Assembly: GCF_001299475.1 (NCBI RefSeq)
Contig: NZ_CYUJ01000003.1
Location: 128,409-192,408, forward strand
Direction: 5' to 3'
DNA: 64,000 nt
Source of the DNA: Neofamilia massiliensis
GTDB taxonomy: Bacteria; Bacillota; Clostridia; Tissierellales; Peptoniphilaceae
Within the stretch, counting starts at the first letter, position 1. Every line of letters begins with the position of its first letter. Of this stretch, positions 1 through 64,000 are shown in pieces. The notes under the pieces are model-generated. The model saw only the letters and a program-made list of their open reading frames with translations, was not told where the DNA came from and searched no databases. Both the position numbers and the translations under genes were made by a program.

Positions 1-446
1 TCCCTAAACTCTTTTCTTACATCGTCATAGAAGTCTCCCTTATCAGCAATTTTAATTGCATCTTGTAGGTCTCTATTTCTTCCTAATTGATTTACATATG
101 AAAGTTCAATGTGGACACTTGGATCAAAAGAATTTAAAAAGTTGGCAAATTGGTTAAAGATTAAATCTCTGTCTTCTTCCAATGCCAACTGGTAATTTAT
201 ATCTTGAAATGAAATTGTCTTTGAATAATTTTTTTCATCTAACTGGCAAATGCCCTCTGGTAACATTCTTATATAGGGAATTGTATCCTCAACAGTAAAT
301 CTCTTTTTCTCTTTCTTTAAAAGTACACTTAGTAGACTATTTGTTGGTTCTTTCTTTGTTTTTAGCCTTCTTACTTCCTTTCTGTCTTTTTTTAATTGTT
401 TTTCCCTTAGATTTAAGTCGCTGATTTGCTTTTTTCTTTGCTTCAA
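1..446 (-). CDS. virB4: VirB4/TrbE-like conjugation ATPase, N-terminal part (runs off the left edge)
   Basis: This is the first 148 codons of the ATPase that powers the type IV secretion channel of Tn1549-type conjugative elements. The frame is open from 446 to the window edge and reads as a lysine/arginine-rich start followed by a VirB4-type N-terminal region (for example DTIPYIRMLPEGICQLD). The Walker motifs lie outside the window. I chose a TTG start at 446 because an AAAGGAGG ribosome site sits six bases upstream (453-460). With this start the gene overlaps the end of prgI by 110 nt, which suggests translational coupling. The family call comes from gene order (prgI then virB4) and sequence character. 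The start codon is an inference. Confidence 0.8.
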   Translation of the reverse strand, partial: MKQRKKQISDLNLREKQLKKDRKEVRRLKTKKEPTNSLLSVLLKKEKKRFTVEDTIPYIRMLPEGICQLDEKNYSKTISFQDINYQLALEEDRDLIFNQFANFLNSFDPSVHIELSYVNQLGRNRDLQDAIKIADKGDFYDDVRKEFR

Positions 447-747
447 GGTATGCCTCCTTTCTTATTCTCTTAGTTGGTTGATAAAACTTATGAAGATAGA
501 AAAATCTAAAATACTTTTCAAAAGTTAAGGTGTCTTTTTCATATAAGGTTATAAAAAAGATTGGCAGGGTTACTATTAGCATTACAATGATTGAAACATC
601 ATTAGGTAGATATTTCTTCATAAATAAATAGGTTGGTATGCCAATTAGTCCTGCCATAGAAAAACCTATAAGTTGTCTTTTAGTTAAGTTAAAGGCAACC
701 TTTGTTTTAATCTTGTCCAAATCTTTTGGTATTGGTACATACGCCAT
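337..747 (-). CDS. prgI: PrgI family membrane protein of the conjugation channel
   Basis: This 136-aa protein matches the PrgI family found next to virB4 in Gram-positive conjugative plasmids and elements. The N-terminus MAYVPIPKDLDKIKTKVAFN is typical, and two hydrophobic segments (about residues 26-42 and 50-67) are the membrane part. The C-terminus is very basic and lies in the 110-nt stretch that also encodes the start of virB4. PrgI proteins are thought to form part of the membrane channel. The gene follows the 96-aa orf by one base, so it belongs to the same transcript. Confidence 0.88.
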   Translation of the reverse strand: MAYVPIPKDLDKIKTKVAFNLTKRQLIGFSMAGLIGIPTYLFMKKYLPNDVSIIVMLIVTLPIFFITLYEKDTLTFEKYFRFFYLHKFYQPTKRIRKEAYLEAKKKANQRLKSKGKTIKKRQKGSKKAKNKERTNK

Positions 748-748
748 T

Positions 749-1039
749 TTAATCTCCCTCTACTTCTTCTTTGGAAAGTTCAAGTATATGGTCATAATTA
801 GATGTTGTTTCCTCTTCTAGGTAGCTAATTCTTTCTTCTAATTCTTCTTGTTTTTCTTCATTTCTGTCATTGTATTCTCCTTGATAAATAACAAATTCAT
901 TGTGACATCTTCCGAGTCTATTTATTCTCCTCTTTAAGTTTCTAATCTCTTCATTTCTTTTCTTCTCTTTTAAGATTTCATAAGTTCCTCCCAATAAAAT
1001 TCCAAGTCCTAATAAAGCATAATTTTTCTTTTTTAACAT
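749..1039 (-). CDS. Small membrane-anchored coiled-coil protein of the transfer operon, function unknown
   Basis: This 96-aa protein is not assigned to a family here. Residues 7-21 form one hydrophobic, glycine-rich segment after a lysine-rich start, so it is probably an N-in single-pass membrane protein. Residues 24-85 are charged and rich in Glu/Arg/Leu heptads, consistent with a coiled coil. It lies between the virB6-like and prgI genes with spacings of 9 nt and 1 nt, and a good ribosome site (AGGAGG) precedes the ATG. Its position implies a role in the transfer channel or its assembly; that is inference from context. Confidence 0.7.
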   Translation of the reverse strand: MLKKKNYALLGLGILLGGTYEILKEKKRNEEIRNLKRRINRLGRCHNEFVIYQGEYNDRNEEKQEELEERISYLEEETTSNYDHILELSKEEVEGD

Positions 1040-1048
1040 TTATTCCTC

Positions 1049-1870
1049 CTAGTGCGTATTCATAATACTTTTTGCAACTGTTCCACTCTTAAACATCATA
1101 AGTCCAAGTAGTAGAGCATATCCTAATATACTAAACAAGCTTGCGTGAATATCTGTAATCTGTACCGTTCTTATTAAAACGGTGTAGATACCTAAACATA
1201 TCATCAAAAACAAACCTTGTAGTCCCAAGGCAAAAAGTCCCTTGATATAATTTGTTCCAATCTGACCCCATTCTTTATTTCCCATAGTCGCAAATGGTAT
1301 GGATGATACTGATGAGTAGACATATATTTCAAACATACGCCCATATACTATTAAGGTAATAGTTAAAGATATACATTGAATTGCAATCCTCACTAGGCTT
1401 GTTTCAACTAATATCATTATCAGCTCACCTATTTCTTTTTCTTTTAATGTATCAACCATTGCAACTATCTGATCTCCTGAAACAGTGGCAGAAGTAGTGA
1501 TTACCCCTGCCGCTTTGTTTACAAGATTTTGTGCCACATCAAAGACTGCCATTGAAAATTCAAAGGCATGGCTTGCAAGGTAGACTGCTATAAACATCTT
1601 TATAATGTATTTGAAAAACTCAAAAGTATCTGTATCATGCATATTATTTTTTTGCATAACCATATTTATGAGTTCAATACATAAAACTGCTGTTATGATA
1701 AGACCTGCTATTGGGACAATCACATTATCTTTCATGTTTTTTATGAAGTTGTATACTTCTCCATTCCAACCCATTGGCGTCTTCCCAACATCAGTTGCAA
1801 TAACTCCTACCTTGTCATTTATATCTAAGAACATGGACTCAAGATTTGCTTTGATACCTCCGAGTAGCAT
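1049..1870 (-). CDS. VirB6/TrbL-like polytopic membrane protein of the conjugation channel (5' end disrupted)
   Basis: The readable part is 273 aa with about six hydrophobic segments, including residues about 53-70, 88-105, 155-178 and 210-232. It has the conserved start region of this family in Tn1549-like elements (DINDKVGVIATDVGKTPMGW). VirB6-type proteins form the inner-membrane part of the mating channel. The annotated ATG at 1870 has no properly spaced ribosome site. The natural start is at 1912, which has AGGAG seven bases upstream, but an in-frame TAG at 1874-1876 (codon 13) interrupts it. The protein is therefore either made by re-initiation or readthrough, or not made well. The rest of the frame is intact. 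Confidence 0.8.
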   Translation of the reverse strand: MLLGGIKANLESMFLDINDKVGVIATDVGKTPMGWNGEVYNFIKNMKDNVIVPIAGLIITAVLCIELINMVMQKNNMHDTDTFEFFKYIIKMFIAVYLASHAFEFSMAVFDVAQNLVNKAAGVITTSATVSGDQIVAMVDTLKEKEIGELIMILVETSLVRIAIQCISLTITLIVYGRMFEIYVYSSVSSIPFATMGNKEWGQIGTNYIKGLFALGLQGLFLMICLGIYTVLIRTVQITDIHASLFSILGYALLLGLMMFKSGTVAKSIMNTH

Positions 1871-1873
1871 ATC

Positions 1874-1912
1874 CTAAAAAAATTCAGTTAGCTTGTCAAA
1901 GATACCAAACAT
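1874..1912 (-). other. Natural start of the virB6-like gene with an in-frame amber codon at codon 13
   Basis: The minus strand reads ATG (1912) for MFGIFDKLTEFF and then TAG at 1876-1874. It continues in frame as D-M-L-L-G-G-I into the virB6-like protein. A ribosome site (TTAGGAG) stands at the right distance before this ATG. From memory of the family, lysine normally follows the double phenylalanine, so a single AAG-to-TAG change would explain the stop. No frameshift at the run of seven T residues restores a longer frame. Confidence 0.75.
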
Positions 1913-1922
1913 AGACTTTCTC

Positions 1923-2023
1923 CTAATTTAAAACATTTGCAAGTAGTGGAATTAATTTAATACCGATTAGTACAATTCCCCCACCAGCCATAAGCTGCTT
2001 AATACCTTGAGATTTAGCACCAG
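1923..2023 (-). CDS. Maff2 family small membrane protein, exon 2 (after the group II intron)
   Basis: This is the downstream exon of the 71-aa Maff2 family protein. It completes codon 39 with CT (giving Pro) and then reads GAKSQGIKQLMAGGGIVLIG onward to a TAG at 1923-1925. Joined to exon 1 at 4774-4888, the reading frame is continuous and restores the family consensus NDNPGAKSQG exactly, which fixes the splice boundary. The exon encodes the second membrane segment. The protein can be made only if the intron splices out. Confidence 0.88.
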
Positions 2024-2071
2024 ATAGTGATAGGTAATCCTTTGATGTTATCTCCGGATTTTCCCCCACTT

Positions 2072-2108
2072 CACACCGTGCATGCGACTTTCACCGCACA
2101 CGGCGTTC
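2072..2108 (-). ncRNA. Group II intron domain V (catalytic hairpin)
   Basis: The minus strand shows the domain V hairpin: GCCGTGTGCGG, a GAAA-type tetraloop region (GTGAAAGTCGC), and the partner arm GCATGCACGGTG. The catalytic triad position appears to read CGC rather than the more common AGC. A purine-rich domain VI candidate follows (2024-2071) with several unpaired adenosines that could serve as the branch point. Confidence 0.85.
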
Positions 2109-2174
2109 CATCACAAGAAAGATTTTCACGTTTTAACTAAGACTTACACACTTCGTAACAAATTATTTTTTTCT

Positions 2175-4043
2175 CTAAATTAGTGGCAGTTCTGCCATTT
2201 TTCTAAGCTTATTACATTTCTCAATCTGCTTGACTGTTAACCCAAGCTCTTTTATATATTTTTGGATTGTATCTACTTTTGTTGCATGGATGAGTATATG
2301 AACTGCTTCTGTAACAAGAATTAAGTTGCTGTAACTATCTGTACCGCCTTGTTCAAGCGGTATCTTGTGATGGCAATGTATGTCGTTTGGTATAAGTTTT
2401 ACACCTGTTACTCCACATCTGCCATATTGAGCTGCAAAGAGCGAGATTCTGTTGTCTGCAAACTCTATGCTTTTATCAAGCACAGGATGTCTCATCAACC
2501 AAACAAGTGTATCTACATCAATTTGCAGATTTTTATGAATAAAAGCTCTGCCCTTTACAGTGTATTTATTTACAACCTTTTTCTTGTGTTTTGCGTCCTT
2601 TGTCCTAATATATCCAACTGGAATTAGCGGATGTCCATTAAGGAAGCGAAGCTGTTTACTTTTTCCATATTTTTCTTTGATAAATCCTTTGTTTAGCGTT
2701 CCACTGGTTTTAATATCAAGTCTGTTGTTCATCTGCTTTTTAATGTGAAAGGCTATTTTAGCAAAGTCCAAACTTACATTTGTTGCTATTTGGTAGTAAT
2801 TATGCAAGCCTGAAACAGTGGCATTATACTTGGCTATTGCTTTGTACTGTTCCTTTTTGTTTGCAGGTCTTTTTATATCCGCAACACATTTAGAAATATC
2901 TTCTTTTGCATTTTTCAGTGCCTTATCACTTATATGCGACTGTACAACAAACTTTTTGCCTTTTGGTTTAACCTTCAGCTTGAAACCTAAGAACTCCGAA
3001 TACTTTTGTTTTAGATTTGTTATTTTAGATTTTTCTTCACTTACATTTAGTTTTAATCTGTCTTGCAACCATTTTGTAACTGCCTGATAGGTTCTTTTTG
3101 CATCGTAGTAATTACGGCAAAATATCTTAAAATCATCAGCATACCTTACAATGTATATTTCTTTTAGGTTGCTTGTTCTTAAAGCTCTGTAGGTATGGCT
3201 TTTTATCTCTGTTCCTTGACTGTTCGTTCTCTGTTTATATGGATAATGCGTGGGCATTGTCAGCCATTGAGAAGAAACCCACCAATCTAATTCGTTCAAG
3301 ACTACATTAGATAGTAGCGGTGATAATATACCGCCTTGTGGTGTTCCCTTTGTTGGTGTAATTACCTTTTTATCGGGCATAACTATGTCTGCTTTCAGCA
3401 TTTCCTTAATGATACAAAGTAGCTTTTTGTCTTGGATACCCAAATTCCAAAGTTGCCTTATGAGCTTTGCATGATATACATTGTCGAAAAATCCTTGTAT
3501 ATCAATATCAACTACATAGTGTAAGTGCTGTATCTGCATTAGTCTCGCACATTCTGCAATAGCGTGTTCCGTACTCCTGTTAGGTCGAAACCCATAGGAG
3601 CTGTCATGAAACTTGGCTTCACATATCGGCTCTAATATTTGCAAGATACATTGTTGTACAATTCTGTCTACAATAGTCGGTATTCCTAAAGGTCTTATTT
3701 TCCCATTAGGCTTTAGTATCTCCACTCTCTTTACAGGGCGTGGTTTATACCAATGAAACTGTTTTTGTATGAGAGAAATGTATTCTTCTTCATTTAGCCT
3801 TGATAGATGTTTTATTGTTCTGCCATCTACTCCGGCTGTATGACTTCCTTTGTTCCCTTTGATACTGCGATAGGCAAGTTTTATATTTTCTCTTGAAGTT
3901 ATCAACTCCATTAAATTTGAAAATACTTTATTCTTACTGCTATCTTCATATAAATCATCAAGGACTTTTTGCAAGTCATAGTATTCCGTATAACGGATTT
4001 TGCTTTGTTTCAGTGTTTGTTTCGAAGTGGACACAGTCACCAT
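2175..4043 (-). CDS. ltrA: Group II intron-encoded reverse transcriptase/maturase with HNH endonuclease
   Basis: This 622-aa protein splices the intron RNA and copies it into new DNA sites. The reverse-transcriptase domain covers about residues 40-330, with RPLGIPTIVDRIVQQ (116-131), SSYGFRPNRST (148-158), GTPQGGILSPLL (233-244) and the catalytic YADD at 301-304. A maturase (X) region follows at about 340-450. The C-terminus carries an HNH nuclease, with HCHHKIPLEQGGT starting near residue 556 and two upstream cysteines in a zinc-ribbon-like arrangement. The length is typical and no frame damage is visible. It sits inside the intron on the same strand and is read from the element's transfer transcript or an intron promoter. 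Confidence 0.95.
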   Translation of the reverse strand: MVTVSTSKQTLKQSKIRYTEYYDLQKVLDDLYEDSSKNKVFSNLMELITSRENIKLAYRSIKGNKGSHTAGVDGRTIKHLSRLNEEEYISLIQKQFHWYKPRPVKRVEILKPNGKIRPLGIPTIVDRIVQQCILQILEPICEAKFHDSSYGFRPNRSTEHAIAECARLMQIQHLHYVVDIDIQGFFDNVYHAKLIRQLWNLGIQDKKLLCIIKEMLKADIVMPDKKVITPTKGTPQGGILSPLLSNVVLNELDWWVSSQWLTMPTHYPYKQRTNSQGTEIKSHTYRALRTSNLKEIYIVRYADDFKIFCRNYYDAKRTYQAVTKWLQDRLKLNVSEEKSKITNLKQKYSEFLGFKLKVKPKGKKFVVQSHISDKALKNAKEDISKCVADIKRPANKKEQYKAIAKYNATVSGLHNYYQIATNVSLDFAKIAFHIKKQMNNRLDIKTSGTLNKGFIKEKYGKSKQLRFLNGHPLIPVGYIRTKDAKHKKKVVNKYTVKGRAFIHKNLQIDVDTLVWLMRHPVLDKSIEFADNRISLFAAQYGRCGVTGVKLIPNDIHCHHKIPLEQGGTDSYSNLILVTEAVHILIHATKVDTIQKYIKELGLTVKQIEKCNKLRKMAELPLI

Positions 4044-4773
4044 CTCCTTTCGGATTTGATTTTCTTTGTCATACTCGAAGCTGTGTTTGTCTTAATTTCA
4101 GTTCTTGTACTTTCCTGTGACTGGTGGCTATCCCTCCACGAACTTATTATTTTCGCTTCATAGGTACTGTGCCACCGCTTTCACCAAGATAAAGAACGGT
4201 TATATGCTGTTTTTTTCAGTCATTTTCCCATTCAACACTTCATTAGCATTAGACTGCTTCCATGCTCTTGGCTTACCACGTTCCGACAATCTTATCTTTG
4301 CATACGTTTAGGTTCTTCCTCTAAGCCTGTGTTTAGTTTTCACCATATCGCCTGTAACGATATATGGATTTTCATAACAACCATTCTTACTCATCCACAA
4401 ACACCCCATCTTTGATGGGAATTGCCGTTAGGCAAATTCAAACGTTTAGACCCTTACATTCGGAAGTACGTCAGTACTTTGGTATACACATTCTCACCAT
4501 GCGTATTCGACACCCGACATATAGGTAGCACCGTCCACCTCTGAACAGCTTTCGTGTCTGATGTTAATATCAGTCTTACGGCTACTCTCTGCCGACTTCA
4601 CCGAGCTTTTGACAATGAAATAGTCTAATATTCATTGCCAATCGGAGTATCAGTGTAGGCATTTCAGGGCGTTACCCCGTCATTCTACCTATCAGATTGC
4701 CAGTTCTCCTAAGTTTTGAACTTTCAGTCCTTCGATTTAGTGCATAAGCTTTTCACTTATGAACGTGTCGCAC
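4044..4773 (-). ncRNA. Group II intron 5' ribozyme region (domains I-III)
   Basis: These 730 nt between the intron 5' end and the RT gene hold no protein gene. They correspond to the folded RNA domains I to III and the start of domain IV, with many short inverted repeats and a higher GC content than the flanking element genes. The 5' end GTGCG at 4773-4769 is diagnostic. I did not resolve the exon-binding sites. Confidence 0.8.
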
Positions 4774-4888
4774 GGTTATCATTACCATAACCTTCCATTA
4801 AGTTAATAACTCCCCATGCTCCTAAACCTGCACCAATTGCAGTTACAAGTGTCTTTAAAACTCCAACTCCAGCTGTAAAAAATTCCAT
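4774..4888 (-). CDS. Maff2 family small membrane protein, exon 1 (before the group II intron)
   Basis: Exon 1 encodes the first 38 residues (MEFFTAGVGVLKTLVTAIGA then GLGAWGVINLMEGYGNDN) plus the first base of codon 39. This is the Maff2 signature found just upstream of the virB6-like gene in Tn1549-type elements. The first hydrophobic segment spans about residues 8-31. The ATG at 4888 abuts the ssb stop at 4890 and has an AGGAGG ribosome site inside the end of ssb. Maff2 proteins are small channel-associated membrane proteins with no defined biochemical role. The unspliced message stops soon after the junction, at TAA inside the intron. Confidence 0.9.
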
Positions 4889-4889
4889 A

Positions 4890-5204
4890 TTATTCCTCCT
4901 CGTTTTCTTTCTCTTTATTTTCTATTTTGTTTAGTGATTTAACTATAAAGTTCTTGTAGACCTTATCTCCTTTTTTGTTTTCTTTGAAATATCCAAAGAC
5001 ATGGATTAGATCTCCTTTTTCAAATTCTTTTGCAATTTCTACCTTTTCTCCATATACTGAGCAATTTGTATATTCTTTGTCCTTTCCATATTTTTTAACA
5101 AGAGCAAAATTTGCTACTTGAACACTTTCTCCATCTTTTTCAAATTCTGAGAATTCAGCTTCCTTAACTAAATTTGCATTAATATTTATCATTTCTCTAT
5201 CCAT
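4890..5204 (-). CDS. ssb: Small single-stranded DNA-binding-like (OB-fold) protein of the transfer operon
   Basis: This 104-aa protein resembles the short SSB-like proteins carried before Maff2 in Tn1549-type elements. It has an OB-fold pattern: ININANLVKEAEF, a central VANFALVKKYG/TNCSVYGEKVE strand pair, then KGDLIHVFGYFKENK, and an acidic Glu/Lys-rich tail. It probably coats the transferred strand. The start could be ATG 5204 or the ATG four codons later; neither has a strong ribosome site. It is the first gene after a leader ORF and terminator at 5237-5320, so its expression may be attenuated. Confidence 0.75.
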   Translation of the reverse strand: MDREMININANLVKEAEFSEFEKDGESVQVANFALVKKYGKDKEYTNCSVYGEKVEIAKEFEKGDLIHVFGYFKENKKGDKVYKNFIVKSLNKIENKEKENEEE

Positions 5205-5236
5205 TAATTTCTTCTACTTATTCTAAAAATTTCAAT

Positions 5237-5269
5237 TAAAAAAGCGAATGAACTTATATTTCAATCGCT
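5237..5269 (-). terminator. Intrinsic terminator or attenuator just upstream of ssb
   Basis: On the minus strand AGCGATTGAA (5269-5260) pairs with TTCATTCGCT (5252-5243) with one mismatch, followed by a T run. It lies 25 nt after the stop of an 8-codon ORF and 32 nt before ssb, so it would cut transcription into ssb-Maff2-virB6-virB4 unless it is bypassed. Confidence 0.65.
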
Positions 5270-5293
5270 AAATGTCTTATATATTAAATTGTT

Positions 5294-5320
5294 TTAAGTG
5301 GGACTTCTTATCCTTACCAT
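5294..5320 (-). promoter_or_regulatory. Putative 8-codon leader peptide ORF (MVRIRSPT) before the ssb attenuator
   Basis: A very good ribosome site (TTAGGAGGTTAAG) is followed by ATG and only eight codons, M-V-R-I-R-S-P-T, then TAA. A terminator hairpin follows 25 nt later. A strong Shine-Dalgarno in front of such a short frame and a terminator is the layout of a translation-controlled attenuator. A possible -10 (TATACT, ending near 5338) with a poor -35 overlaps the preceding terminator. Function is inferred from layout alone. Confidence 0.45.
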
Positions 5321-5343
5321 CTTAACCTCCTAATTTTGAGTAT

Positions 5344-5377
5344 AAAAAAAGACGATAGAGTTTTTAATTTCTATCGC
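5344..5377 (-). terminator. Intrinsic terminator after the 91-aa orf
   Basis: On the minus strand GCGATAGA (5377-5370) pairs with TCTATCGT (5359-5352) across a 10-nt loop and is followed by seven T residues. It ends the transcript that runs from repA through virD4 to the 91-aa orf. Confidence 0.75.
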
Positions 5378-5394
5378 TCATTAATACCTTATTT

Positions 5395-5670
5395 CTAGTC
5401 TTCTAAAATTGATACTTCAAGGTCTATCGCTTTAAATGTAACAGTTATTCCTACTTCGTCTTTTACTGTTTTTTCAAATAGATCAGCTATATCATATGGG
5501 GACATATCATATATATCTTCATACCATTCATTACTTTCATCGTACATTGTCTCACATATTGCTTGAATATAATTTTTCTTATCCATAGTGAGTTCTGTAT
5601 CACTTTCTAGAATAAACTGCTCACCATTTATATTTAATATAATTAAAGATGATTTTCTATTTTCACACAT
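5395..5670 (-). CDS. Small acidic protein downstream of virD4, function unknown
   Basis: This 91-aa, strongly acidic soluble protein has no motif I recognise. The first half looks like a beta-hairpin region (SLIILNINGEQFILESD); the second half is rich in Asp/Glu/Tyr. It lies 18 nt after virD4 on the same strand and is followed by a terminator, so it is the last gene of the repA-virD4 transcript. A regulatory or anti-restriction type role would fit its acidity and place but is not supported by any motif. Confidence 0.6.
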   Translation of the reverse strand: MCENRKSSLIILNINGEQFILESDTELTMDKKNYIQAICETMYDESNEWYEDIYDMSPYDIADLFEKTVKDEVGITVTFKAIDLEVSILED

Positions 5671-5688
5671 TTTGCTTTCTCCATATAC

Positions 5689-7485
5689 TCAAATGTTTAA
5701 CCTATTTATTTTATAACTTGATTTTAACTTTACCTTATCTCTATTTGTTAAATACTCCTCTACATCAAACAAGTTTCTCTTATCATAATCTTCCAATAAC
5801 TTGTAATTTTTATGCTTTGTAATATCGAATTTATCAGATAAGAAAGGTCTTACTCCTCTTAACTGATAAATACACTTACCACCATCCATTACAGTTATTT
5901 CATCTTGGCTCATAAGTTCCTTGCCAGTCTTTTGATAATTTAGTCCAAAAGATTTTTGATTTGATCTTGTTTCTGATGTGTTATATAGGTCTATGGTTTC
6001 TTTTCCTAAGGTTTCTGATAATTCTTTTACTGTTGTTTTTTCTTTTCCTCCTAAAAAGAGTGTAGAGTCACAGTTACCAACTATTGTATCTGCATGGTCT
6101 TTATATATTGCTTTTAATTGAGATTGTGCTTGTAGAATTATGCTTGCAGATATTTCTCTTGAACGAATTGTCGCTATTAGTTTTTCAAATTTTGGAATCA
6201 AGCCTATATTCGCAAACTCATCAAGTAGACACCTAACATGAACTGGAAGTCTACCACCATACACATCATCTGCCTTATCACATAGTAGATTAAATAATTG
6301 AGAATACATTATTGATACTACAAAGTTAAAAGTATCATCAGTATCTGATATTATTACGAATAAAGCAGTTTTCCTATCTCCAATTTTATCGAGTTCTAAT
6401 TCATCTTCACTCATTAGCTCTCTAAGCTCTCTTATATCAAAAGGTGCTAGTCTTGCTCCACAAGATATTAGAATTGACTTAGCAGTTTTTCCTGCTGCCA
6501 GCTTATATTTCTTATATTGCTTAACTGCAAAATGACTTGGGTCTTTCTTTTCAAGAGCTTCAAAGAGCCTATCAATTGGGTTCATATAGGTTTCGTCATC
6601 TTCTCTGACTTCACTTGCGTCAATCATATCTAAAAGTGTCTTAAAGTTCTTTTCTTCTTCTGGTGCTTCATAATAGATATAACCGATGAGGGCAGTGTAA
6701 TATAGTTTCTCAGCCTTTACCCAGAAATCTTCTCCTGCCTTTTCTCCATCTCCCTTGGTGTTAGCAATAATTGTTTGGACTAGCTTTAAAATATCTTTTT
6801 CACTTCTCAAATAAGCAAAGGGATTGTATTTCATAGATTTTTTAAAGTTTATTGTGTTTAATATCTTTATATCATATCCATTTTCATAGAGCATTTTTCC
6901 ACACTCTAACACAAGTGTTCCCTTAGGGTCTGTTACTACATAAGAAGAGTGCATTTGCATTAGGTTTGGCTTTACATAAAATCTTGTCTTACCTGATCCA
7001 GAACCACCTATTACTAATACATTTTTATTTCTAGCATATTTAGGATTTTTAGGTCTTGAGTTCATTGTAAGTCTTTCAGTATTAGTTATTAGAACATTAT
7101 TTTCAAACTTAGGGTCAATGTATGGAGCAATATCCTTGCTTTCTCCCCATCTTGCAGATCCATATTCCTTGCCTTGCCTATATTTCTTTTTATTTTTTCC
7201 TTTGCTATAAACAATTAGCTTAACAAGACCAGCAACTGAAATACCTACTAATAAGTCCCTTGGATTAAGACTTGGTACATAAGATAAAGTTCCTATATCA
7301 GAAATCCCCACCATTATTCTATCAATAATATCTCCTCCTACATAAGAATTTATGTGCTTAGAAAAGATATTTCCAATGTAGAAAAATGATAGATAAGGAA
7401 TGTTTGATAATATAAATTTCTTTGGGTTGTCTATTTTAATTAGGTTTTTAATATCAGAAAGAATAGCTTCCAATATCTTATTCAT
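5689..7485 (-). CDS. virD4: VirD4/TraG type IV coupling protein
   Basis: This ATPase docks the relaxase-DNA complex to the mating channel. Counting from the upstream GTG at 7500, it has two N-terminal membrane segments (about residues 30-48 and 80-98), Walker A GGSGSGKT at 165-172, and a Walker B region LLDEFANIG after RLPVHVRC. I prefer the ATG at 7485 (598 aa) because GAAGG stands eight bases before it and it overlaps the stop of the antirepressor gene by 8 nt (ATGAATAA), a coupling layout. The length is normal for Tn1549-type coupling proteins and the frame is intact. Confidence 0.93.
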   Translation of the reverse strand: MNKILEAILSDIKNLIKIDNPKKFILSNIPYLSFFYIGNIFSKHINSYVGGDIIDRIMVGISDIGTLSYVPSLNPRDLLVGISVAGLVKLIVYSKGKNKKKYRQGKEYGSARWGESKDIAPYIDPKFENNVLITNTERLTMNSRPKNPKYARNKNVLVIGGSGSGKTRFYVKPNLMQMHSSYVVTDPKGTLVLECGKMLYENGYDIKILNTINFKKSMKYNPFAYLRSEKDILKLVQTIIANTKGDGEKAGEDFWVKAEKLYYTALIGYIYYEAPEEEKNFKTLLDMIDASEVREDDETYMNPIDRLFEALEKKDPSHFAVKQYKKYKLAAGKTAKSILISCGARLAPFDIRELRELMSEDELELDKIGDRKTALFVIISDTDDTFNFVVSIMYSQLFNLLCDKADDVYGGRLPVHVRCLLDEFANIGLIPKFEKLIATIRSREISASIILQAQSQLKAIYKDHADTIVGNCDSTLFLGGKEKTTVKELSETLGKETIDLYNTSETRSNQKSFGLNYQKTGKELMSQDEITVMDGGKCIYQLRGVRPFLSDKFDITKHKNYKLLEDYDKRNLFDVEEYLTNRDKVKLKSSYKINRLNI

Positions 7486-8212
7486 CGTAAAAACCTTCAC
7501 TATCTAATAAAATTAGTAGGTAGTGCCTTCCTTTTGGTGTTATAAATGTTTGTATGCCTACAAGTGTACCTAGTGGATCAACCCATTCTTTTACTTCAAA
7601 ATATCCCTTATTCTTATCTGCATAAGGTAAGAGCTTCTTTTTCTTATCTCTATAAATTAATCCCTTATCCATTAAAAAACTTATAAACTGATTTTGTGGT
7701 ATTCCTAACTCTTTGGCAGTATTTCTAAAATTTGTAAGTAGGTTATAATCTACTAATTTGTCATAATAGTCTGCCTTTGGTCTTAATTCTTCAATTTCTT
7801 CTTCCCTTTCAGCAATAATTCTATTGGCTACTAAAATTGCATCTGCAAGTAACTCTTCATTGGTTTTCTTTTCTTGCCCTACTATATATCCTCCATTTTT
7901 TCTAATACTTGGTAAGACTTCTCTCGTTACCCAAGCCTTGAATATTTTTGCTTGTGGTAGTTTTGATGAAAGGATAAGTGAATACAATCCTGATTCATTA
8001 ATTATTGAAATATTCTGTATTCCTCCAGGGGTGTTCCATTTCGTTACACCCTTATCTTCCTCGTCTACATGGTCATAAATAGCTTTTCTTGGATTAACAT
8101 ATCCTAACATAGTTGCTACTTCATTTGCTATAAAGAAAAACTCACCGTCTTTTTCTATAACAGTGAGTTTCCCAAAATTCTTATTTTCAAATGTTTTTAA
8201 ATCACTTATCAT
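7478..8212 (-). CDS. BRO-N / KilAC-type phage antirepressor within the transfer operon
   Basis: This 244-aa protein has an N-terminal BRO domain (about residues 10-115, with the pattern FFIANEVATMLGYVNPRKAI then a LPQAKIFKAWVTREVLPSIR segment). A coiled linker (120-150) is followed by a C-terminal KilA-C-like domain (about 150-240). Phage antirepressors of this type bind DNA or repressors to trigger lytic genes. Here the gene sits between pcfB and virD4, with a 4-nt ATGA overlap before it and an 8-nt overlap after it, so it is translated with the transfer genes. A role in switching the element's transfer genes is plausible but inferred. Confidence 0.85.
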   Translation of the reverse strand: MISDLKTFENKNFGKLTVIEKDGEFFFIANEVATMLGYVNPRKAIYDHVDEEDKGVTKWNTPGGIQNISIINESGLYSLILSSKLPQAKIFKAWVTREVLPSIRKNGGYIVGQEKKTNEELLADAILVANRIIAEREEEIEELRPKADYYDKLVDYNLLTNFRNTAKELGIPQNQFISFLMDKGLIYRDKKKKLLPYADKNKGYFEVKEWVDPLGTLVGIQTFITPKGRHYLLILLDSEGFYDE

Positions 8213-8694
8213 AAGCTTTGCTCCTTATGTTTATTTTTAACTTTATCTTTGCTGATGGTGTCCTTAGCCATATCTTTAAACTTATTTATTGTCTTTGTTA
8301 TTGAATCTTTTCTATCGGCCTTTTTTTCAGAAGCTTTAACTGCTTTTTTAAAAGCATGTTCCATTACCTTTATATCCTTAGATTGAAAAAACACAGAGTG
8401 GTTACCAGTTTCCTTATCTTTCATTACAGAAAACTTCACTCCGTGTTTATTTAAAATTTTCTTTAGTTCTTTTAACTCAGGATCTTTTAGATTAATTTCT
8501 TCTAACTGTCCCTTTTTTACCATATCCTTTAGCTTTACTTCTTCTCCGTTATTTTTTATTACATTTTTCAAGCCTCCTTGTTCCTCTATTTGCTTGTGTA
8601 CTTTCTTTAATGCATCAAGAATTGCCTTGCTCGTTGCTTTTGCAAGTCTTACTTCAAGGTTAAGACTCGACCTAGATACTTCTTCATTAATCAT
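8209..8694 (-). CDS. pcfB: PcfB-family (DUF3801) relaxosome accessory protein
   Basis: This 161-aa, lysine-rich protein resembles PcfB of conjugative plasmid pCF10, which links the relaxosome to the coupling ATPase. Visible features are an N-terminal helix (RSSLNLEVRLAKATSKAILD), a central region ending HGVKFSVMKDKETGNHSVFF typical of DUF3801, and a long basic tail. It overlaps the dnaC-like gene by 8 nt upstream and the antirepressor by 4 nt downstream. The neighbouring virD4 supports the call. Confidence 0.82.
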   Translation of the reverse strand: MINEEVSRSSLNLEVRLAKATSKAILDALKKVHKQIEEQGGLKNVIKNNGEEVKLKDMVKKGQLEEINLKDPELKELKKILNKHGVKFSVMKDKETGNHSVFFQSKDIKVMEHAFKKAVKASEKKADRKDSITKTINKFKDMAKDTISKDKVKNKHKEQSL

Positions 8695-9514
8695 CTATTC
8701 CACCTCCATATAAAAGTAACTCTTTGTATTTTCTTAACTTCTCTTGATGAATTTTTCTTCTAAAATCTTCTCCCGTAACTTTAACTGGTATTGTCATTTC
8801 AAGTATTCTTGAATATATTCTCTGATACTCAAGGTCAATATTTGGATTTTGAATTATTTCCAATGATAAGTTTGTGGTAAAAATTGTCGGCCTACCCTTT
8901 AAGTATCTTGAGTTTATAATGTTATATACTTGTTCTCTTGCATAAGATGTATCCCTTTCAATTCCAAGGTCATCTAAGATCAACAAAGGAACATTAGAGA
9001 GGTTACTTATTATTTCATTTGAATCAACCTTAAATGCAGATTTTTGTATTTGATTTATAACCTGAGATAAATTCATAATCTTAACTTTAACTTGTTCTCT
9101 TTCAATTAATTCATTTGCAATAGAACAAGCAAGATAAGTTTTTCCACTACCAACATCTCCATAAAATAAAAGTCCAACATTGTCTTCCTTCATTTGCTCA
9201 AAACTTTTGGCATAATTATAAGCAACCTTATAGGCTTGACCTTTTTCATTTAGGAATTCCTCAAAAGTATATTGGTGTTGGAGCGGCGATGAAAAACAAT
9301 CTCTTTTTAGCGATGATATTCTCGTCAATATTTCTCTCTCTGCATTTTCCTTATCTCTTTTTATTTCACATTCACATTTAATTCTTGGAATAAACTTTGT
9401 AAATCCAAGGTCAAGTAATTCTCCATCGACCCTTTTACCGCATACCTTGCAATAAATATGTCCATTTCTTTCAATATCATTTTCTCTTAATACAAAATCT
9501 TTTAAGTTTTTCAT
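8687..9514 (-). CDS. DnaC/IstB-like AAA+ ATPase (helicase loader) of the element
   Basis: This 275-aa protein has an N-terminal zinc-ribbon-like region with cysteines at 22, 25, 47 and 49. The AAA+ core has Walker A GDVGSGKT at 119-126 and Walker B VPLLILDDLG, followed by a sensor region (RPTIFTTNLS). Proteins of this type load the replicative helicase. Paired with repA it forms the replication module that lets such elements replicate after excision. Its ATG overlaps the repA stop by 4 nt (ATGA). Confidence 0.9.
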   Translation of the reverse strand: MKNLKDFVLRENDIERNGHIYCKVCGKRVDGELLDLGFTKFIPRIKCECEIKRDKENAEREILTRISSLKRDCFSSPLQHQYTFEEFLNEKGQAYKVAYNYAKSFEQMKEDNVGLLFYGDVGSGKTYLACSIANELIEREQVKVKIMNLSQVINQIQKSAFKVDSNEIISNLSNVPLLILDDLGIERDTSYAREQVYNIINSRYLKGRPTIFTTNLSLEIIQNPNIDLEYQRIYSRILEMTIPVKVTGEDFRRKIHQEKLRKYKELLLYGGGIDD

Positions 9515-10284
9515 AAACTCTCTCCTATATCGTAATTCATTTTTCTTGTTGAACTTTCATTAATGTTTTTTGCCTGATCATTAAGATACCAATTGATTAT
9601 TGTTGCTTTGTGATCTTGATAATCTCTGTTATTTGCTTTCATATAAGACGAAAGCCTATCAATGTATTCACTAATTCTGCTTCCTAACTCATTTGTTAAG
9701 TCCTTGTATTCTTCATCAGTCAAAAATATATTTTTATATATTCCATAAGGCTTTTGCCCTTTATTAAAATCATTCTTTCTTAACTCATTATTACTAATAT
9801 TGTTATAGTTACCTTCCGATTTTCGGAAATCTTGAAGTCTGTTATTCGGAGTTCTTGAATTCCGATTATCGGAAGTCTGGACTTCTGCTTTTCGGAAATC
9901 TGGATTTCTATTATTTGAATCAGAGAAAACACTCATAAAATCTTTAACATATATCCTATTTGGTTTTCCAAGTCCTTGTCTTTTCTTTTCTATCAATCCA
10001 ATTCCTGATTTTGTATCAAGCTCATTTATAATCTTTAAGGCTTTATCATTAGCACAGTTAAATTGCTCTTTTATACTTTCAATTGTGTAGTAGATAAAGA
10101 CTTTTCCATCTTCATCTATCCAGCCATTTTTATATGAAAGACCCATTCGATTAAGCATATATGAATACAAAACTTTAGCTTCAATAGATATGCTTTCAAA
10201 AACCTCATCTTCCATTAATACCATAGGTAACCTAATGAAGTTATACATCTCAGATTGCCTATTATAAAAATAATCAAAATTCAT
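9511..10284 (-). CDS. repA: RepA_N-type replication initiator of the conjugative element
   Basis: This 257-aa protein has the RepA_N domain in residues 1-105 (FIRLPMVLMEDEVFESIS, VLYSYMLNRMGLS, winged-helix region). A low-complexity linker (about 115-165) follows, in which DFRKAE and DFRKSE recur 23 residues apart, and then a C-terminal domain (about 175-257). The linker DNA holds four 23-bp repeats. RepA_N initiators are known to bind origins inside their own coding sequence. It is the first gene of the element's operon and has a strong ribosome site (GAGAGGAGG). A terminator-like hairpin and short ORF precede it. Confidence 0.88.
   Translation of the reverse strand: MNFDYFYNRQSEMYNFIRLPMVLMEDEVFESISIEAKVLYSYMLNRMGLSYKNGWIDEDGKVFIYYTIESIKEQFNCANDKALKIINELDTKSGIGLIEKKRQGLGKPNRIYVKDFMSVFSDSNNRNPDFRKAEVQTSDNRNSRTPNNRLQDFRKSEGNYNNISNNELRKNDFNKGQKPYGIYKNIFLTDEEYKDLTNELGSRISEYIDRLSSYMKANNRDYQDHKATIINWYLNDQAKNINESSTRKMNYDIGESL
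9823..9914 (-). repeat. Four direct 23-bp repeats inside repA (probable iterons/origin)
   Basis: On the plus strand, units beginning TCGGA start at 9823, 9846, 9869 and 9892, exactly 23 bp apart. Units 1 and 4 match at 19 of 23 positions. Inside and beside them are palindromes, TTCCGA-TTT-TCGGAA (9814-9828) and TTCCGAT-T-ATCGGAA (9860-9874). Because 23 is not a multiple of three, successive copies are read in different frames, so the repeat is kept at DNA level. This fits initiator-binding iterons. Function is inferred. Confidence 0.7.
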
Positions 10285-10302
10285 TCCTACCTCCTCTCTT
10301 TA

Positions 10303-60825: not shown

Positions 60826-61899
60826 TTAGTCTAATACTCTTCTTGCATGAGAAAAACAGTTTTTGAAATAATATGAATCTATTGGCGTTTCAATAATACT
60901 CTTGGCAGAGTTTGATGCATGAACCATTTTTCCACCACCAACATAAAGGGCAACGTGATTAATAACACTACCACCCTTGCTAGTGAAGAATAAGAAATCT
61001 CCTGGTTCTAAATCCTCTTCAAAAACAAGTTCTCCTACTTCGGCCATATCCTTTGAGGATCTAGGTAATTTCTTGTCAGTAAATTCACCCATTAAAGAAT
61101 AAATCATACCTGAACAGTCATAACCTTCCTTACCAGTGTCTCCATAAACGTATGGGCTGCCAATTAGGGTATAGGCCTTGTCAATAATTTTTTCAACTAA
61201 ACCAGCACTTTCAGCACTTAGGCTTAGTGGTCTTTCATAAGTTGTTCTTTTAATTTTTTCTACTAAAGTTTCTTCTTTAGTATAAATTGAAATCTTTTCT
61301 TTTGCTACTTGGTACTTGTTTTGGTTGTTGTCGAAAACTATGTAATAGTCTTCTTGGAACCATGCAACTTTAACAGAATCTCCCTGGTTAATAGAAAAGT
61401 TACTTCTACCATTATCTAAAAATAAATCCTCATTGGCCTTTCCATCAACTATGTTTCTAATTCTGTCTGGATCCAAACAATCATCTTTTTTTACGAATCC
61501 CCTAAGACCATCTTCAGTTAGAACAAGGTCTTTGTCTCCTTGAGATTCAAGGAATTTTAAATATTCATTACTAGCAAGTACTCTAATTACTTGATCATTT
61601 TCATCATATAAAGTTGTGTTTTTAATAACAGTGTAACCATTTACTCCATTGTCAACTTTCAATAGACTTTCTTTTGGTACATAGAAAGTATTGCCATCAG
61701 CTTCAACCTTGTAAGTTGTTTTGCTGGCACCTTCGCCTGTTATTTCAGCCCTGTCATTAGGGCTATAAGAAACTTCTGTTCCGTTATTAAGTTTTGCGTT
61801 GAAGTTATTTACAAAAATTCCCGTATCTTTAAAGCCTACTAGGCCAATTACTAATGTAAAGGCCAGGCCTACTGGAACTTTAAAATTGCGTTTTTGCAA
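60826..61899 (-). CDS. Secreted NlpC/P60 cell-wall endopeptidase
   Basis: This protein is 357 aa from a TTG start at 61899 (GGAG eight bases upstream; the GTG at 61908 is too close to it). It has an uncleaved or signal-type N-terminal hydrophobic segment (VPVGLAFTLVIGLVGF), SH3-like middle regions and a C-terminal NlpC/P60 domain. That domain has the Cys in YDCSGMIYSLMGEF, the His in INHVALYVGGGKMVHA and a third polar residue near HASNS. It probably cuts peptidoglycan stem peptides. Single-gene unit with its own terminator. Confidence 0.9.
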   Translation of the reverse strand: MQKRNFKVPVGLAFTLVIGLVGFKDTGIFVNNFNAKLNNGTEVSYSPNDRAEITGEGASKTTYKVEADGNTFYVPKESLLKVDNGVNGYTVIKNTTLYDENDQVIRVLASNEYLKFLESQGDKDLVLTEDGLRGFVKKDDCLDPDRIRNIVDGKANEDLFLDNGRSNFSINQGDSVKVAWFQEDYYIVFDNNQNKYQVAKEKISIYTKEETLVEKIKRTTYERPLSLSAESAGLVEKIIDKAYTLIGSPYVYGDTGKEGYDCSGMIYSLMGEFTDKKLPRSSKDMAEVGELVFEEDLEPGDFLFFTSKGGSVINHVALYVGGGKMVHASNSAKSIIETPIDSYYFKNCFSHARRVLD

Positions 61900-61973
61900 C
61901 TTAAGCACTCCTTTTCTCTTTACTTCTAATAACTAATAAAATTATAGACTAAACTAGGCCTTAATGCAAGAAA

Positions 61974-62016: not shown

Positions 62017-62035
62017 TCATAATTATTTCACAAAA

Positions 62036-62350
62036 AAGAGTAAACCTATAAGCCGTGTTCTGTGTTATCTAATCATTAATCTAGCCTTATTGTTGCCAAT
62101 AAGTTCATGCGATCTACCATCTGACAATTGCTTGCCCCATTTGATCTTGCTCCAGGTGGGGTTTACATAGCCATATAATCATTTATATGCTGGTGAGCTC
62201 TTACTTCACCTTTCCACCCTTACCTTATATAAATAAGGCGGTATATCTCTGTTGCACTAGCCTTAGGGTCACCCCTACTGGACGTTATCCAGCACCTATT
62301 GTAGGAGCACGGACTTTCCTCACTTTAAGCGCGATTAGTCAGTTTACTCT
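62036..62350 (-). ncRNA. rnpB: RNase P RNA
   Basis: The minus strand carries the conserved RNase P core: GAGGAAAGTCCGTGCTCC near the 5' end, AGGGTGACCC-type helices, AGAGCTCACCAGC, and ACAGAACACGGCTTATAGG near the 3' end. The first and last segments, GAGTAAAC and GTTTACTC, pair perfectly as helix P1. The length of about 315 nt is short but within the bacterial range. It is the catalytic RNA that matures tRNA 5' ends. purD ends 40 nt before it. Confidence 0.95.
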
Positions 62351-62389
62351 TTCCATATTATATTTTAAATCTCTTTTTTTATCAAGTCT

Positions 62390-64000
62390 TTATGATATTT
62401 TTGTTGGAACGCCTAAAAGTTTTCCATCTGATCCTTGAAGAATTTCTAACAAGGCTCTTTTTAAATTTATAAAATCATTCTTATTAACTTCTTTGCTGCT
62501 AGCAAGAACTAAAGACTTTTCTAAATACATATTTTCAAATTCAGCTTCTTTTTCTAAGTCAACTACTAGGGCCTTTTCAAAAGTTTTTTGTAAATCAAAG
62601 GCTTTTAAGTTATAAAAAGATTTTTTATTTCCAGCTAAGGTCTTACAAAGGTCTTTTCCTTCTTCTTGATTTAAATTTTCGTAGTCGTATCTTGAGTAGA
62701 CTTTTATTTTGCTTTTATCAATATTATTTTTTTCTAAAAGTTTTTCAATTTCCTCAAAATCTCCAAGGTCTTCTTCTATATAAAATCTTTGAACTTGAGG
62801 TCCAATATCTGTTCTATAATACTTGCCTTCAAAATCAATTGTCTCTGCTGCTTTATAAGCTTTATTTATTGCTTCCTCAAAAGAATCTTCTATGGCAACT
62901 ACTGAAAGAACTCTACCACCTGCTGTCACTAATTTATCATCTTCAAGTTTAGTTCCTGCATGATAAATTTTTACGCCTTCAAGTTGGTGAATGTTTGATA
63001 TTTCATAGCCTTTTTTGTAGCTTTCTGGGTATCCAGCTGATGCTAAAATCAAAGTTAAAACTTTTTTGTCATTAAAGACAAGATCGGCCTCAGCTAATTT
63101 GTCTTCGCTGGTTTTTATCATTAGGTCTAAAAGATCTGAATCCAGTCTATTTAAAATTGATTGGGTTTCAGGATCTCCAAAGCGAGTGTTAAATTCTAAA
63201 ACCTTAATGCCATCTGCTGTAATCATTAGGCCAATAAAAATAACTCCTCTAAAATCCATTTTATCTGCTTGGATCCCTTTTAGAAATGGATTTAGAATCT
63301 CTTCTTCAAGATCAGCTAAATATGGACTTGCTTGAATATTTGGGCTATAAGTTCCCATACCACCTGTATTTAGACCCTGGTCCTTGTCAAAAATATTTTT
63401 ATGATCCTTGGATGTTGGAAGCATTTTTATTGTGTGGTTGTCTACAAAGGCAATTAAACTCATTTCAAAGCCTTCGAGAAACTCTTCAATAATTACTTTC
63501 TTAATTCCATAGTCTCCAGTTTTTAAAATTCTCCTTAAGTACTTTTCTCCATCTGAAAGATTATCTACAATGAAAACTCCCTTACCTGCACAAAGACCAT
63601 CAGCTTTAATTACAGCCTTAGATGATTCGTCTAAAAGTTTTTTTGTAAAATCAATCGCCTGGTTAAGGTTTGATGTTTCTATATATTGACCAGTTGCAAT
63701 ATTATGTCTAACCATAAAGTCTTTGGCAAAGGCCTTAGAGCCTTCTAGCCTTGCACTTTCTTTTCTTGGTCCAAATATTTTTAGCCCCTTATCTTCAAAG
63801 ACATCAACTAGACCTAGGTTTAGTGGGTCTTCTGGACCGACAATAGTAAAGTCTATTTTATTTTTTTCTGCAAAAGCTACTAGGCCATCAAGGTCTGTAA
63901 CTTTTATATCTACATTTTCTCCTACTTTTCCAGTGCCGCCATTGCCTGGAGCAAAATATATTTTATCACACATGGGTGACTGGCTTATTTTTTCTCCAAT
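62390..64000 (-). CDS. purD: Phosphoribosylamine-glycine ligase with a PurL-N-like C-terminal extension (5' end beyond the window)
   Basis: The frame is open to the right edge (IGEKISQSP before the first Met), so the gene starts outside the window. PurD carries out the second step of purine synthesis. ATP-grasp motifs are present: APGNGGTGKVGENVDI, VGPEDPLNLGLVDVF, KADGLCAGKGVF, GGMGTYSPN and LEFNTRFGDPETQ. PurD normally ends soon after YYRTDIG; here about 134 more residues follow (62393-62794) beginning VQRFYIEEDLG and containing SRYDYENLNQEE. That tail resembles the start of large PurL (formylglycinamidine synthase), not PurD. rnpB follows 40 nt downstream. Confidence 0.9.
   Translation of the reverse strand: MGEKISQSPMCDKIYFAPGNGGTGKVGENVDIKVTDLDGLVAFAEKNKIDFTIVGPEDPLNLGLVDVFEDKGLKIFGPRKESARLEGSKAFAKDFMVRHNIATGQYIETSNLNQAIDFTKKLLDESSKAVIKADGLCAGKGVFIVDNLSDGEKYLRRILKTGDYGIKKVIIEEFLEGFEMSLIAFVDNHTIKMLPTSKDHKNIFDKDQGLNTGGMGTYSPNIQASPYLADLEEEILNPFLKGIQADKMDFRGVIFIGLMITADGIKVLEFNTRFGDPETQSILNRLDSDLLDLMIKTSEDKLAEADLVFNDKKVLTLILASAGYPESYKKGYEISNIHQLEGVKIYHAGTKLEDDKLVTAGGRVLSVVAIEDSFEEAINKAYKAAETIDFEGKYYRTDIGPQVQRFYIEEDLGDFEEIEKLLEKNNIDKSKIKVYSRYDYENLNQEEGKDLCKTLAGNKKSFYNLKAFDLQKTFEKALVVDLEKEAEFENMYLEKSLVLASSKEVNKNDFINLKRALLEILQGSDGKLLGVPTKIS

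Follow-up and report, generated by a model that had tools for sequence, protein, structure and literature searches.

The large FGAM synthase (PurL; TIGR01857) begins with an N-terminal domain whose function is not clearly understood and which contacts the synthetase and glutaminase domains of the enzyme (PMC3815217). Its stand-alone structural counterpart is PurS, the small subunit of the three-part FGAM synthase (PMC3815217, PMC3261824), which has been termed a protein-protein interaction module (PMC3261824). PurS is an independent, dimeric protein of under 100 aa. Standard GAR synthetase (PurD; TIGR00877) ends a few residues past its GARS_C domain, but one report (PMC3890548) describes a fusion of PurD with PurL in Clostridium botulinum BKT015925 and C. 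novyi NT. When the literature was searched for a PurD-PurL fusion in Peptoniphilaceae, this Clostridium report was the only one found, and no description was found of a PurD carrying the PurL N-terminal domain only. An earlier note on the DNA studied here knew of no standard protein with this make-up, which holds for the truncated form but not for the full fusion. Here we analyze a purD gene in which such a truncated form, hereafter called the stump, is encoded, and show that it is a variant of the known fusion rather than a new kind of system.

An additional domain at the C-terminus of PurD

The window (the whole 64,000-nucleotide stretch of DNA analyzed) ends within purD, which lies on the minus strand, as do all features of this locus described below. 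Its start codon is just outside the window end; 527 aa of the product fall within the window, and the complete protein, read from the genome, has 550 aa. The catalytic part (62801-64000), which opens MKILIVGSGAREHAIGEKIS..., is complete and like standard PurD, with a whole-length match to TIGR00877 above the curated cut-off (447 versus 288 bits) and all three Pfam domains, GARS_N, GARS_A and GARS_C. The TIGR00877 match ends at residue 394, past which there is no annotated match, and standard PurD would end nearby, whereas the window PurD continues in frame and without a linker for 136 codons past YYRTDIG (62393-62800). The earlier note had recognized this open frame correctly and given it as 62393-62794, which is six nucleotides short.

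A TAA stop (62390-62392) closes purD and its tail, and 39 nt further on lies rnpB for class A RNase P RNA (62033-62350; Rfam RF00010, 253.7 bits); the remainder of PurL is missing and rnpB is close by, as the earlier note had stated. A probable rnpB promoter (TTGATA, 17 nt, TATAAT; 62357-62385), read from the sequence by its resemblance to the consensus, opens four bases 3' of the purD stop, and a similar site was found in the same place in a congener. Thus, the 3' end of purD is probably hemmed in by the promoter of an essential RNA. On the 3' side of rnpB is an open reading frame for an SH3/NlpC-P60 type cell-wall hydrolase (60826-61908; named from its sequence), which together with rnpB served as a syntenic marker of the locus. 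Elsewhere in the window, the region 1-10300 resembles, judging by its translations, part of an integrative conjugative element, with genes for a coupling protein (5689-7500), a single-strand binding protein (4890-5204) and DnaC-like and replication-type proteins, and with a group II intron reverse transcriptase (2175-4043).

Direct searches with the tail alone against Pfam, NCBIfam and solved structures yielded no useful match and no curated family; Pfam PurS in particular gave nothing at E ≤ 1, and a profile search of the PDB with an alignment gave no real match. A phosphoglucomutase match (E 0.0017, under the family cut-off) was dropped once an alignment with fused relatives accounted for the tail. 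In this alignment with intact PurD-PurL fusions, the tail begins at PurL residue 1 and stops at the boundary between the N-domain and the linker, where LLGVPTKIS in the window tail corresponds to LLGIPTTLK in the intact fusions. In the following, the window genome is labelled G000, its congeners G001 and G002, and the genome from the sister genus G093. The PurD of G001 bears a similar tail of 142 aa, 43% identical to that of the window. A profile built from ten intact fused N-domains, with both tails left out, matched the tails of G000 and G001 at E = 3.2e-11 and 2.1e-11, respectively, and the best score among 5,000 shuffled tails was 0.0012.

The predicted structure agrees with this assignment. 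An AlphaFold2 model based on the alignment of the tails with the intact domains had a pLDDT of 86 and a pTM of 0.82, and in a Foldseek search of the PDB human PFAS and Salmonella PurL were among the top-probability matches (0.63-0.80; TM about 0.5), no PurL match having an E-value below 0.001. A model from the two tails alone agreed in the succession of its strands and helices, with lower confidence and matches that were more generally ferredoxin/PII-like. The RxY and YxR(Y/F)DxE motifs are retained in the tails. Absent from both are the PGQ-DQR and NPV(D/E) motifs, whose Q, R and N are conserved at 97-100% in aligned PurLs, and several small deletions occur within the tail domain. Together, these data show that the tail is a homolog of the PurL N-terminal (PurS-like) domain over its whole length. 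It differs from that domain in large PurLs by its position at the C-terminus of PurD and by the loss of the two motifs, and the linker, synthetase and glutaminase domains of TIGR01857 are absent from the gene. The resemblance to the PurL N-terminus that had been proposed from the sequence was thereby borne out, by the profile as well as by the structure prediction that had been suggested as a check; an unrelated fold of the tail, named in advance as evidence against it, was not what the prediction gave.

Intact PurD-PurL fusions in relatives and at the same locus

A whole-protein search of 40 related genomes uncovered several in which the PurD reading frame stays open for ~1,640 aa. Among 130 genomes of Peptoniphilaceae, with family membership judged from named members, roughly fifty encode PurD within an uninterrupted frame of about 1,630-1,675 aa, and the fused frames inspected (about 24) all consist of PurD and a full PurL with neither a stop nor a linker between them. 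Named carriers include Peptoniphilus obesi, P. duerdenii, Aedoeadaptatus and an Anaerococcus. These fusions, like that of Clostridium (PMC3890548), share with the window gene the same in-frame, linkerless join, but the window gene is without all of PurL after the N-domain, and a separate gene is predicted to supply PurL activity. The stump was found only in G000 and G001 among the 130 genomes; thus, as to the conservation in related species that the earlier note had raised, many genomes of the family carry the full fusion, which the note had missed, and the stump is shared with one congener.

Some other arrangements were seen in relatives. In Erysipelotrichales (L120-L127), purN, purH, purD, purL and purB are adjacent, with purD and purL as separate genes a few nucleotides apart, a plausible precursor arrangement for the fusion. 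Frames of 975 aa that looked like another PurD fusion proved to be PurD, a stop and then a separate gene. Five genomes of one genus (G119-G123, genus g21) each hold two PurD-like genes, the second about 35% identical to the query.

In an rpoB tree, the nearest genera to G000 and G001 are those of G093 and G102. The gene order in G093 is trmK, nif3, purD-purL (1,656 aa), rnpB and NlpC/P60, and the window has this same order with the stump in place of the full fusion; in most other relatives examined, nif3 adjoins rnpB with nothing intervening. A further witness is G002, whose rpoB is 86% identical to that of G000 and 76% to that of G093. Its genome is 64% complete and the contig opens inside PurL, leaving the upstream PurD junction off the contig, and this contig (L081:1-2983) encodes the C-terminal 876 aa of a PurL, followed 40 nt on by rnpB and the same downstream genes as in the window. 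The native PurL is thus still present at this locus within the genus. The NlpC-P60 neighbor is common to the window, G093 and G002. Compared with the intact fusions, G000 and G001 are without about 1,080 PurL residues, the break falling at the N-domain/linker boundary, and no PurL remains are found in either genome between the purD tail and the probable rnpB promoter. Nothing was seen in favor of an artefact of assembly that would have brought purD and the rnpB region together, and the identical junction ending PTKIS is present in two separately assembled genomes (G000 and G001), which makes this explanation practically negligible.

The PurD tree likewise nests G000 and G001 within the fused-PurD clade (100/100), and a clade made up of fused PurDs only, leaving these two out, is rejected (p = 0.026). 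Their place among the fused PurDs is loose, and a grouping with the clade to which the separate PurL belongs is compatible with the data (p = 0.26). From PurD alone, one foreign fusion could therefore be the source of both genes, but synteny argues against this. With intact fusions in relatives and one at the same locus in G093, the view that a purD-purL fusion was later cut back, one of the two offered by the earlier note, has gained firm ground.

The separate PurL and the history of the locus

Both G000 and G001 have one complete separate PurL. That of G000 (C3:221006-224644; 1,226 aa; TIGR01857, 1457 bits) contains the linker, synthetase and glutaminase domains, and that of G001 (TIGR01857, 1421 bits) has the same neighbors. 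The earlier note had named a complete large PurL elsewhere, together with an unrelated fold of the tail, as evidence against its view; such a PurL, which the note had missed, indeed lies about 30 kb away, but the fold of the tail is related. The separate PurL does not lack the N-terminal domain: both separate PurLs have a complete one of their own. The window genome also has the other early genes of the pathway, as a purC-E-F-M-N-H cluster (C3:371.6-377.2 kb); an apparent pur frame of 1,483 aa resolves into these separate genes.

In the PurL tree, the separate PurLs of G000 and G001 have that of G012 as their neighbor and lie close to Peptoniphilus-type PurLs, away from those of G093 and G002. 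The AU test rejected a tree in which they join G093 or its clade, the native position (p about 1e-5); joining them to the native PurL of G002, which has a long branch (1.05 changes per column) indicative of fast evolution, was rejected too (p = 0.002). Most likely, the separate PurL was acquired horizontally, a reading in which the origin as well as the donor and direction are what we infer. In the most economical account, the PurL half of the native fusion gave way to a separate PurL whose ancestry is different. An alternative with the advantage that one event yields both genes is a duplication of the native fusion within the genus, one copy being reduced to PurD with the N-domain and the other to the separate PurL. 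The PurD tree taken alone is compatible with kinship to the separate-PurL clade, but the failure of the separate PurL to group with the native PurL of G002 or with that of G093, at the p values just given, makes such a duplication very unlikely.

Fusions may have been lost elsewhere too. In three genera (G006, G012 and G024; L084, L087 and L091), the separate PurL is nested in the fused-PurL clade and PurD belongs to a different, non-fused lineage, suggesting that the PurD-PurL fusion was probably reversed on more than one occasion. A single clade of all fused PurLs is rejected (p = 1.3e-4).

We thus consider it highly probable that a PurD-PurL fusion survives in the window gene as a stump, its PurL part having been deleted after a separate PurL took over. 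The order of events that we infer is as follows. An ancestor in the family would have had PurD joined directly to the large PurL in one chain, and in the lineage of the window genome this fused gene would have come to sit with nif3 on one side and rnpB on the other. A complete PurL from a different lineage may then have entered, or arisen elsewhere in the genome, and taken over FGAM synthesis, after which the redundant PurL part would have been deleted from the N-domain/linker boundary to the rnpB promoter, leaving an intact PurD with the PurS-like N-domain of PurL as a C-terminal appendage.

Selection on the tail and its possible role

Between G000 and G001, the tails are 43% identical and the PurD parts 82%. 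The dN/dS is 0.38 for the tail (bootstrap 95% 0.16-0.64) and 0.10 for PurD (0.06-0.13), and in the separate PurL about 0.24 for the N-domain and about 0.10 for the remainder, all approximate values from two genomes with synonymous sites near saturation. In the tail, 24% of second and 52% of third codon positions differ, and second-position changes were fewer than in every neutral run matched to the third-position divergence. Moreover, in neutral simulations matched to the observed divergence, both tail frames stayed open in none of 400 runs. Together, the few second-position changes and the simulations indicate that the tail is under purifying selection, which is relaxed relative to PurD.

These data bear directly on whether the tail might simply be decaying, as a dead appendage without a useful role whose clean removal has yet to happen. 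The low identity of the tails relative to PurD, the lost signature motifs and the small deletions would all fit decay, but stops would be free in a dead tail, whereas the two frames run uninterrupted for 136-142 codons, which together with the rarity of second-position changes and the outcome of the neutral runs leaves this explanation doubtful. Since stops would cost nothing in a useless tail and the tail nevertheless persists, its loss appears to harm PurD, most simply, as these data suggest, by destabilizing a PurD that evolved with the domain attached. We hold a putative role of the tail as a folded C-terminal cap or stabilizer of the PurD that evolved with it to be the likeliest, with about even chances.

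The same open frames and purifying selection in two species could also be taken as signs of a working docking module, which would hold PurD near FGAM synthase by binding the separate PurL or some other purine enzyme; the other view in the earlier note, of a tail that could bring PurD and the FGAM synthase step together, was of this kind. Such a role would accord with the contacts that PurS and the PurL N-domain make with the synthetase and glutaminase domains (PMC3815217) and with the description of PurS as an interaction module (PMC3261824). Against it, the separate PurL has its own complete N-domain, which would fill the site, and comes from a different lineage than the PurL with which the tail evolved; the tail's loss of two motifs found in nearly all PurL N-domains argues mildly against docking as well. 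These three points make docking less likely. In the established pathway, the PurD and PurL steps are not consecutive, PurN/PurT acting between them, and this too speaks against holding the two enzymes together. Overall, we regard docking as unlikely, and the tail, which would be incapable of making FGAM, most likely plays no part in FGAM synthesis. A broader view, in which the stranded N-domain was reused and selected as a C-terminal module of PurD, either stabilizing it or recruiting the separate PurL, we hold to be rather doubtful; if it is true, a foreign protein took the place of one half of a fused enzyme and the joint was kept.

On the reading that we prefer, of a fusion cut back to a stump, the locus offers a clear case in which half of a fused metabolic enzyme was displaced by a separately encoded homolog, with the states before and after visible at one locus, both across neighboring genera and inside one genus. 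The intact fusion, the stump and the separate PurL form a testable set for asking why enzymes fuse and whether a domain left behind is put to new use or is just dead weight, and the same set bears on the role of the poorly understood PurL N-terminal domain. For annotation, the PurD of the window genus must not be labelled a PurD-PurL fusion, while many genomes of the family are predicted to hold both PurD and PurL activities in one gene.
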